64,000 bases of DNA. Source: Brachyspira suanatina (GTDB lineage: Bacteria; Spirochaetota; Brachyspiria; Brachyspirales; Brachyspiraceae). Both the position numbers and the translations under genes were made by a program. Shown here piece by piece: positions 13,991-17,294 of this stretch (its first letter is position 1; every line of letters begins with the position of its first letter). The DNA is taken from the NCBI RefSeq assembly GCF_001049755.1, contig NZ_CVLB01000003.1, positions 186,001-250,000 on the forward strand, written 5' to 3'. Below the pieces are notes generated by a model. The model saw nothing but the letters and a program-made list of their open reading frames with translations. It searched no databases and had not been told where the DNA came from.

Positions 13991-14950
13991 TCAATTCTTA
14001 GAAAACTTATTAACCAATTCTACCCTATTTTTTACGCCTGATTTTTCATATATATTAGCAACATGATTATTTACTGTATTCAGAGATATACTAAGTATTA
14101 ATGATACTTCCTTATTAGTTTTGCCATCAAGAAGATATGATAATATTTCCTTTTCTCTTTTAGTTAAATTTACCTCTATTTCTTTTGAAGATTCATTTTC
14201 TGTTTTAACATCATCTTTTATGATGTTTTCATTCTTTAAATTATTAGGATTAGACATTTTATTATTAACTATATTGATGAAATACCAAGATAAATAGCCA
14301 AGCATAACCAAATTCCACCATATATAAAATAATAATAATGTTATGTCCATGGAACCTATATCAGCTGCTTCCATTCTATAAATGATAAGCTGATATATAA
14401 GAACCGGATATATTATTATAGTTATAAGTCCTAATATCTTGACTATTAATTTCATTGTCTTATCTTTTATACTTTTATAGTTTACAGCTCCTATTATAAA
14501 TATAGCTATTATAGAAATATAGAATATAATGCTGCTTATAATATATATATCAAATGTTATTAATATTCCTAATATACTTAAAACAAAATGAACTATTGAT
14601 ATTATGATATAAATAATATTCTGTTTGAAATTCCATTTTATATTCAAAAATCTATATAAAAATGCTGGTATGAAATAAAGCATTAATGACATTGCTATAG
14701 AGAAACTAAAGAAATATAAAGTATTAAATATATTGTTAGACATAAAATATGGGACTGTTAAAAAACTTAGAAGTTTAACAGCTCTTATTAAAAGGAGAAA
14801 TGCAAAAGTAAATAAAAATATTATATAATATTTAAGCCATGCAACTCTTTCTATTATATAATAAATAATGGAAAAAAGTATTGTAGAAAAGCCTATTATA
14901 AAACCAAACAAATAGGCAACTAAAAGAATATATCCTAATACATAATTCAT
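13991..14950 (-). CDS. Membrane-bound LuxR-type transcription regulator
   Basis: The 319-residue protein has seven or eight hydrophobic helices (about 1-235), a short charged linker, then a C-terminal LuxR/GerE helix-turn-helix: LTKREKEILSYLLDGKTNKEVSLILSISLNTVNNHVANIYEKSG. The recognition helix is SISLNTVNNHVANIY. Membrane-anchored LuxR proteins sense a signal within or near the membrane and regulate DNA directly. Its ATG overlaps the end of the upstream kinase-like gene by four bases, so the two are translationally coupled and probably form one signalling unit. Ligand and targets are unknown. Confidence 0.8.
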   Translation of the reverse strand: MNYVLGYILLVAYLFGFIIGFSTILFSIIYYIIERVAWLKYYIIFLFTFAFLLLIRAVKLLSFLTVPYFMSNNIFNTLYFFSFSIAMSLMLYFIPAFLYRFLNIKWNFKQNIIYIIISIVHFVLSILGILITFDIYIISSIIFYISIIAIFIIGAVNYKSIKDKTMKLIVKILGLITIIIYPVLIYQLIIYRMEAADIGSMDITLLLFYIWWNLVMLGYLSWYFINIVNNKMSNPNNLKNENIIKDDVKTENESSKEIEVNLTKREKEILSYLLDGKTNKEVSLILSISLNTVNNHVANIYEKSGVKNRVELVNKFSKN

Positions 14951-15741
14951 AATTTATTCTTAGCTGGAAATATTATATTAATCCTTTGTTCATTTTTTGA
15001 AGATTCAAGCCATATATTGCCGTAATGTTCTTTTATTATTTTATATGCTGTATATAAATATAAATTATTAAAATTGAAATTATCATAAGATATTAATGGA
15101 GTTTTAAAAAGCATTCTTTTTATATCATCAGGTATATCATCACATTCAAAAGTTATAGATATATCTATACATTCCTCATTCAAATCAAGTATTTTTTCTT
15201 CTTTCTCACTTATATTATCAACACCATTAATCAATAAAAACTCTTTATCATCGTCATAATTTACTAAGCTATATGATATATTCATTGATGTATTTACTTT
15301 TATTATACTATAAATAAAAGAAAATATATTTAGAAGGCTTCTTTTTATTTTATCCCTATCCATTAAAACTACACATTCTGTTAGTATTTTATCACTTAAT
15401 GTTATCTTATTCTTTTTAGATTTAAATAAATCAAATACATTGTCTAAAGCTTCATTTATAACAAAAGATATATTCTCAAAATTCATATTAAGTTTAAAAG
15501 AATCAGAATTTATATCATTAAAGTCGTTTAAAGATTCCATAGTTCTATTTATCAGGAAAGATTGCCTTACTATTGTTGCTCTTGATTCACTGCAGTAATT
15601 ATTAGCACATCTTTCTAAATCTATATACTTTGATATTATACTATTATAATTTTGTACATCATAGATTATATTTGAAATTAAATCTTTTAATTTATTATTA
15701 ATATAAAAATTCTGTTTCATAATACTATCCAGAATAAACAT
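14947..15741 (-). CDS. Degenerate histidine-kinase-like protein
   Basis: The 264-residue protein lacks membrane helices. The second half resembles a GHKL ATPase domain: DRDKIKRSLLNIFSFIYSII sits where the N box should be. The last part, LYLYTAYKIIKEHYGNIWLESS, then RINIIFP, matches the kinase ending (lsivkkivexhgGxiwveS, then GtxfxixlP). The G1/G2 boxes and a clear phospho-accepting H box are missing, so it may bind without catalysing, or act as a scaffold for the coupled LuxR protein. The start is uncertain. The first ATG (15741) has no ribosome site; ATG at 15720 has a GGA nearby. Confidence 0.6.
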   Translation of the reverse strand: MFILDSIMKQNFYINNKLKDLISNIIYDVQNYNSIISKYIDLERCANNYCSESRATIVRQSFLINRTMESLNDFNDINSDSFKLNMNFENISFVINEALDNVFDLFKSKKNKITLSDKILTECVVLMDRDKIKRSLLNIFSFIYSIIKVNTSMNISYSLVNYDDDKEFLLINGVDNISEKEEKILDLNEECIDISITFECDDIPDDIKRMLFKTPLISYDNFNFNNLYLYTAYKIIKEHYGNIWLESSKNEQRINIIFPAKNKL

Positions 15742-15875
15742 AATATTTTAGATTATTATAACATAAAATTATTAAAAATGCTAATTATAGATTATGAATT
15801 CAAAATTTGAATTCATAATCAAAATTCATATAGTAAATTTTATATTGAAATTTATACAGTATTTTTTATTCAAAT

Positions 15876-16234
15876 TTATCAACATTATCAACAAGTTATT
15901 AACATTACTAAAATAATTGAATTCATTATATTTTATATATTCGAATTCAAATTTTGAAGTATCTTTGAATTTGTATTATATAATAATATTATATATTTAA
16001 ATTTTTAAATAAATTTTTTATTATTATTAAGCTGTTGATATGTTGATAACTTTTTGCATATAAGAAGAAATTGAAAAAACTATATAAATATAATGTTGAT
16101 AACTATGTTGATATTAACAAGTATGATATAATTAAGAAATAATAAATTTTATTCTGAAATTCAAAATTTTTATAAAATTAAAATTTGTTTGCAATGTTAA
16201 TATCTTTTCATAATTTATTAACATCTTATCAACT
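15876..16234. other. Candidate replication origin: DnaA-box cluster
   Basis: This gene-free stretch carries exact TTATCAACA at 15876 and 15885 (back to back) with TTATTAACA at 15896. The inverse, TGTTGATAA, is at 16041 and 16094, and TGTTGATAT at 16033 and 16106. Further copies are TTATTAACA at 16215 and TTATCAACT at 16226. The bacterial DnaA box is TTATCCACA, so each exact copy differs at one base. Between the clusters is a nearly pure A/T segment (about 15960-16030), suitable for unwinding. Repeats of GAATTCAAAATTTGAATTC type lie at 15795-15960. No dnaA or dnaN is adjacent. The parS-like sites lie 3.5 kb away. Confidence 0.45.
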
Positions 16235-16418
16235 AATGAAGAATTTTTTATTTTATTATCCCTACCCTACTCTAATTCTTGCATTATATAAAAAATATAT
16301 ATTATAAGTTCACCAACATGAAAACTTAGTGAAAAACATAAATATATAATTATTGATTTTTAGATGTTTTTAATATAATATTTGCCGATATTTAAAAACT
16401 AAATCAAAAGAAAATGAT

Positions 16419-17294
16419 ATGATTAACGATTCAAATAACAATATAAAATTAGGTTCATTATTTATAATGTTTTCTGCTCTTTCATTTAGTATAATGGAAA
16501 TAGCAGTAAAAATTTCAGGATCTAATATACCAGTAATGGAGCAGGTTTTTGCCCGTAATTTTATAACATTATTTATAAGTGCTTTTGTTATGATTAAAGA
16601 TAAAGAAAAGCCTTTTCCAGATAAAAGAAATATTTTGTCAATAATATGCAGAAGTATTTCAGGATATTTAGGTATTATATGCTATTTTTACGCTACTAAT
16701 AATATGGTGCTTGCTGATGCTTCAGTACTTCAGAAAACTTCGCCTTTTTGGTCTAGTTTTTTTGCTTTTATATTGATCAAAGAAAAGGTGTTAAAAATGC
16801 AGTGGATTGGAATGATTATTGCTGCAATAGGTTCTATATTTATAATAAAACCTACTATGAGTTCAAATGTATTTCCTGCTGTCATAGCATTATCTGCTGC
16901 TATGTTTGCAGGTATTTCATATGCTATAATAGGATCTCTAAAAGGAAAAGAAAGCAACTCATTAATAATATTTTATTTTTCTTTGTTTTCATGTATATTC
17001 TCATTATTCTTTGTAAAAAGTTTTGTAGTACCTAATTTGTTTGAAGTGTTATTACTTTTGCTTATAGGAATATTTGCAGGATTCGGACAATTCTTTTTAA
17101 CTATAGCATACAAAAAAGCTCCTGTTTCTGCTGTAAGCATATATAATTATACTGGTGTAATATTTTCATATATTTTCAGCGTATTTTTATTCAAAGAAAG
17201 AGTGGACATTTATTCTATAATAGGAATGGCACTTACAATATTTGCTGCATTATTAGTTTACTTTTATAAAAATAAAGTTTATATTAAAAATTAA
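16419..17294 (+). CDS. EamA/DMT-superfamily transporter (ten helices)
   Basis: The 291-residue protein has ten hydrophobic helices in two EamA repeats. Repeat 1 ends LADASVLQKTSPFWSSFFAFILIKEKV and repeat 2 ends APVSAVSIYNYTGVIFSYIFSVFLFKERVDIYSIIGMAL. The early residues (GSLFIMFSALSFSIMEIAVKISG) are typical. The family exports metabolites such as amino acids or nucleotides; the substrate is unknown. The ribosome site is weak. It is followed by the VIT1-type gene on the same strand after 70 bases. Confidence 0.85.
   Translation: MINDSNNNIKLGSLFIMFSALSFSIMEIAVKISGSNIPVMEQVFARNFITLFISAFVMIKDKEKPFPDKRNILSIICRSISGYLGIICYFYATNNMVLADASVLQKTSPFWSSFFAFILIKEKVLKMQWIGMIIAAIGSIFIIKPTMSSNVFPAVIALSAAMFAGISYAIIGSLKGKESNSLIIFYFSLFSCIFSLFFVKSFVVPNLFEVLLLLLIGIFAGFGQFFLTIAYKKAPVSAVSIYNYTGVIFSYIFSVFLFKERVDIYSIIGMALTIFAALLVYFYKNKVYIKN

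Follow-up and report, generated by a model that had tools for sequence, protein, structure and literature searches.

In the first genome papers on Brachyspira, those on B. hyodysenteriae WA1 and B. pilosicoli 95/1000, the replication origin was placed at dnaA. The 2011 genome paper on B. intermedia combined strand skew with Ori-Finder and arrived at an origin unlinked to dnaA (PMC3163572), in which the 2012 paper on B. pilosicoli B2904 agrees (PMC3532143). Therefore, an origin away from dnaA is already known for the genus, and it was set from GC skew; the passages on the origin in these two papers contain neither a box consensus nor the anatomy nor the exact interval of the origin. Origins of this kind, in which a box array and an A/T stretch lie at a great distance from the initiator gene, are ordinary. 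The oriC of E. coli is likewise a single compact origin away from dnaA, with DnaA boxes in two orientations and an A/T-rich unwinding element. In the B. subtilis incC and the basal unwinding system, adjacent boxes, the stronger one distal, are followed by a short spacer and by central-A triplets running into A/T-rich DNA (PMC6669920, PMC8287927). The corresponding search rule comprises one or more DnaA boxes and at least three 3'-NAN-5' triplets, with spacer lengths peaking at 10-13 nt (PMC8287927). The box itself is subject to drift, accompanied by changes in helix 5 of DnaA, as exemplified by the TTCAC core of Epsilonproteobacteria, the 12-mer of Thermotoga and the cyanobacterial TTTTCCACA.

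The stretch of DNA analyzed here (the window, 64,000 nt) comes from an assembly of 3.26 Mb and 34 contigs, in which it occupies C3:186001-250000. Within it, an intergenic region of 677 bp (15742-16418; 15% G+C) separates the divergent ORFs 14947-15741 (minus strand) and 16419-17294 (plus strand), and this region is with high confidence the chromosomal replication origin (oriC) of a Brachyspira species. It contains nine boxes within 359 bp, four of them exact copies of TTATCAACA and five with one mismatch. On the left, two exact plus-strand boxes at 15876 and 15885 touch each other and are followed, after the dinucleotide AG, by the one-mismatch box TTATTAACA at 15896, which yields the triple box TTATCAACA TTATCAACA AG TTATTAACA (15876-15904) with offsets of 0, 9 and 20. 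The middle is occupied by four minus-strand boxes: a weaker, one-mismatch box ATATCAACA (16033-16041), which has one base in common with the exact box at 16041-16049, the predicted anchor of the unwinding system, a further exact box (16094-16102) and a second weaker, one-mismatch box ATATCAACA (16106-16114). The right pair, again on the plus strand, consists of the one-mismatch boxes TTATTAACA (16215-16223) and TTATCAACT (16226-16234). Between the left triple and the middle boxes lies an A/T-only segment of 57 bp (15974-16030), a predicted DNA unwinding element and the longest such run in the 64-kb window, the next one measuring 42 bp. An earlier note on this DNA had listed the four exact and five near boxes, two of them in contact, around an A/T-only segment, and these elements are present letter for letter. 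It had also described the left cluster as pointing one way and the right cluster as mostly pointing the other; the three left boxes face right, the four middle boxes face left and the last two face right.

To assess the density of the array, the 677-bp region (15% GC) was dinucleotide-shuffled 2000 times. The shuffled sequences contained at most five boxes in total, so that none of the 2000 reached nine, and at most one exact box against the four observed. Three boxes is the maximum for any stretch of 359 bp in the rest of the 64-kb window; an equal density of the motif in other gaps, named in the earlier note as evidence against an origin, is not seen. By itself, the motif TTATCAACA is common genome-wide, with 158 exact copies compared to 66 for the reversed control, and the special property of the array is its clustering and spacing, not the motif. 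A near-match ranking of the 9-mers within the region was uninformative, because A/T-only words dominate it.

Conservation of the boxes in related genomes, which had been suggested as a check, was found throughout most of the genus. The intergenic DNA was matched in 24 of 26 genus genomes, and in the 23 oriented loci the box offsets are near-constant (0, 9 and 20 on the plus strand, approximately 160-166 and 212-220 on the minus strand and approximately 335-352 on the plus strand). The 0/9/20 spacing of the left triple is kept in 22 of the 23 aligned genus loci; G025 has no triple in the stretch examined. The same array was also found in two sister genera, represented by three genomes, two of which (G026 and G027) have a relative of the left-hand gene next to it. 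The anchor box at 16041-16049 is exact in nearly all loci, the exact box at 16094-16102 follows at a distance of 51-53 bp in almost all species, and the weaker box at 16106-16114 is found in close relatives only. The right pair, whose members are 11 bp apart, is located in most species at about 330-340 bp from the first box of the left triple. Each of 21 genomes contains a single copy of a composite motif, TTCTTATATN(3-10)TTATNAACATAT, invariably at the origin locus; its reversed control has 0 occurrences. The composite motif and the DNA match together give the single copy and the conservation in relatives that are expected of an oriC. Absence of the motif is partly explained: the G007 record is cut in mid-motif, the G024 contig ends there and a box of G019 has diverged. 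In G016 (99% complete) and G003 (88%), the array and the left gene both went undetected and the origin search gave A/T-rich chance matches only, which likely reflects an assembly gap.

Gene direction dominates GC skew in Brachyspira (PMC3163572). For this reason, third-codon-position skew on the plus strand, corrected for gene strand, was used, and fine skew was computed in three genomes: the own contig and the complete chromosomes G010 and G011, a pair comprising B. murdochii and a 2.56-Mb relative. The turn from lagging to leading strand expected of an oriC was found in both complete chromosomes, the corrected minimum falling within approximately 3 kb of the locus. In G011, the third-codon minimum lies at 1,886,647 (1,889,310 for corrected G-C alone) and the locus at 1,886,119-1,886,582. 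In G010, the third-codon minimum at 1,593-1,596 kb and the raw GC minimum at 1,597,259 accompany a locus at 1,596,319; T-A taken by itself reaches a minimum earlier, at 1,489 kb. The chromosome record of the complete relative G007 starts inside the locus, and its skew, which is positive over the first half and mostly negative over the second, is consistent with an origin there. In B. intermedia PWS/A, the locus is situated 11 kb from base 1 of a file permuted to the skew origin. The own contig exhibits a broad inflection, since its raw cumulative GC minimum (C3:309,698) is about 108 kb from the locus at 202 kb and its third-codon minimum (C3:172-183 kb; corrected, 177-183 kb) is 20-30 kb away. 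Raw cumulative GC skew of the window or contig is a misleading guide to the origin because it follows gene direction, here a long run of minus-strand genes. A skew minimum elsewhere, which the earlier note had regarded as incompatible with an origin, was encountered in the own contig, at 20-108 kb, and not in G010 and G011. On contig C1 of the own genome, the skew turns from positive to negative near 1.3-1.4 Mb, opposite the locus, as expected for a terminus.

The sole copy of dnaA is located on C1 near 1.052 Mb, on another contig than the locus, and in complete relatives dnaA lies 0.67-1.6 Mb from the locus, so the origin is not linked to it. Around dnaA, no sign change of the skew was found in G000, G007, G010 and G011. 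The position away from dnaA had been called unusual; the distance is real, and for this genus it had been published in 2011.

Compared with E. coli oriC, the sequence and the box layout are unrelated, and position 6 of the Brachyspira box is A, not C. The genus-wide box reads TTATNAACA, in which position 5 is free and position 6 is A where the classical box has C. This A occupies essentially all array positions across the family, and the C of the consensus DnaA box TTATNCACA was not met. Brachyspira DnaA retains the equivalents of E. coli R399 and RDH, and its recognition helix reads RDHAS[VI]IH compared to RDHTTVIH or RDHTTVLH, with one residue fewer ahead of the helix and Ala-Ser in place of Thr-Thr at 435-436 (E. 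coli numbering). In E. coli, R399 reads the TTA end of the box. The DnaA variant T435M of E. coli is defective in box binding, and the helix concerned reads the TnCACA end (PMC5742627). The lineage-shifted DnaA box that had been proposed is supported computationally by a genus-wide consensus and by matching changes in the recognition helix. These data fit a joint change of protein and box, and we infer that the two may be causally related; judged from sequence, it is very likely that the boxes are bound by DnaA. The drift resembles that of the lineage-specific boxes mentioned above and differs from them in affecting position 6 of the 9-mer, with RDHAS instead of RDHTT in DnaA. A literature search for TTATCAACA returned no Brachyspira paper among the matches listed; a box with the same letters is described for the linear chromosome of Cyanothece.

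On the minus strand, the order of elements is TTATCAACA, the weaker box and then triplets with a central T (3'-NAN-5' on the bound strand) that lead into the A/T-only segment. These triplets constitute a DnaA-trio-like run, TTA-ATA-ATA-ATA (16019-16030, minus strand), starting 10 nt past the box at 16041-16049. At least three trio-like triplets occur at the same 10-nt offset, beside a perfect and a weaker box, in all 23 loci, all of which conform to the basal unwinding system rule with a 10-nt spacer; the rule is weak on its own, because central-A triplets are easily found in A/T-rich DNA. At the level of sequence, the likeness to B. subtilis incC extends to the adjacent boxes with the stronger one distal, the short spacer and the triplets running into A/T-rich DNA. 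In contrast to incC, the Brachyspira origin does not lie beside dnaA, its box is TTATNAACA and not TTATCCACA, and its triplets are AAT/TAT, devoid of the preferred G, and not GAT. Beside the left triple box, inspection by eye gave no consistent run of DnaA-trios.

Several further elements are situated in the region. A conserved block, TTCTTATAT (16058-16066, minus strand), adjoins the anchor box. A perfect palindrome, GATTATGAATTCAAA-A-TTTGAATTCATAATC (15790-15820), carries a core, AATTCAAAWTTTGAATT, that is kept in most species. Palindromes and half copies of AATTCAAAWTTTGAATT are found inside the origin at 15790-15820, 15943-15958 and 16158-16169, likewise kept in most species, and possibly serve as a site for another origin-binding protein. 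The contigs of many relatives break at this A/T-rich palindromic DNA. Outside the window, the own genome contains a near-palindromic 29-mer, TTATCAACATTGTTGACAACTTATAAACA (C3:268603-268631), in which two TTRTCAACA halves are arranged head to head with 1 bp between them. Copies of it, often identical in every letter, are also found away from the origin in G002, G004, G005, G010, G016 and G023, and the element might function as an operator or as a titration site for DnaA.

The ORF to the left (14947-15741, minus strand) encodes a degenerate histidine-kinase-like protein of 264 aa with a profile match to histidine kinases (best 4jas, E 3.5e-7). It adjoins the origin in 22 aligned genus loci, and a relative is also present in two sister-genus genomes. 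Its partner (13991-14950, minus strand), present in 21 aligned loci, encodes a membrane protein with a C-terminal LuxR-type HTH (GerE, E 1.5e-18). This left pair (13991-15741) is constant beside the origin across the genus loci and only the right side varies, the EamA transporter gene found here (16419-17294, plus strand) occupying this place in only 6 of 23 loci; the B2904 paper, in its passage on the origin, describes the origin genes as varying between species (PMC3532143). In one species only, the kinase-like gene carries an in-frame TAG (L024 of G001). That the two proteins form an origin-coupled signaling module controlling initiation, for example via the TTCTTATAT block or the AATTCAAAWTTTGAATT palindrome, is an unlikely though conceivable role.

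The synteny of this gene pair with the array across the whole genus, together with the DNA-binding domain of the LuxR protein, might suggest that the array is the operator or promoter of the divergent left genes and is bound by the LuxR-type regulator rather than by DnaA. However, in relatives the array coincides with the turn of the skew. The oriented and spaced boxes span 360 bp, the far pair being 474-493 bp away from the start of the gene, and are interrupted by a 57-bp A/T run; instead of dyads, they are directional 9-mers that have the form of DnaA boxes, with position 5 free. These features render an operator very improbable. It is equally improbable that the array, lying close to the true origin without being it, acts as a datA/DARS-like site for DnaA titration or regulation. 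Such a site would accommodate the displacement of the own-contig skew minimum by 20-108 kb, depending on the measure, but not the corrected minima within approximately 3 kb in G010 and G011; moreover, no other tight multi-box array is found nearby, and the A/T-only segment and the trio-like run are features of origins.

An origin beside dnaA, finally, is what the first genome papers (WA1 and 95/1000) proposed, a placement that later papers abandoned. No dnaA locus contains more than one TTATN[AC]ACA box, and in four genomes the skew keeps its sign across dnaA, which leaves this proposal with virtually no probability. The replication origin claimed in the earlier note is supported by the box cluster, the skew turn in relatives and its absence at dnaA, the conservation and the unique composite motif per genome.

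As regards DnaA binding, the site of melting and the use of the triplets, we infer an unwinding model that appears somewhat more probable than its negation. DnaA, encoded on another contig, would bind the lineage-specific box TTATNAACA, and the convergent groups at 15876-15904 and 16033-16049 both face the A/T-only segment at 15974-16030. Seated on the perfect box (16041-16049) and on its weaker neighbor (16033-16041), DnaA would load onto the single-stranded triplets at 16019-16030 and melt the A/T segment, while the boxes at 16094, 16106, 16215 and 16226 may recruit and shape the complex. The helicase would then enter the bubble and forks would depart both ways.

The exact conserved interval, the TTATNAACA consensus, the family-wide array and its extension to sister genera were not found in the literature searched. 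Part of this information may be contained in DoriC. For a family of gut spirochaetes to which animal and human pathogens belong, an origin approximated from skew is replaced by an interval that is exact and conserved, together with a box consensus. The locus can serve as a fixed reference when genomes are rotated and as a test case of joint change in DnaA and its box (box position 6 with residues 435-436), and the Brachyspira origin becomes directly testable in vitro.
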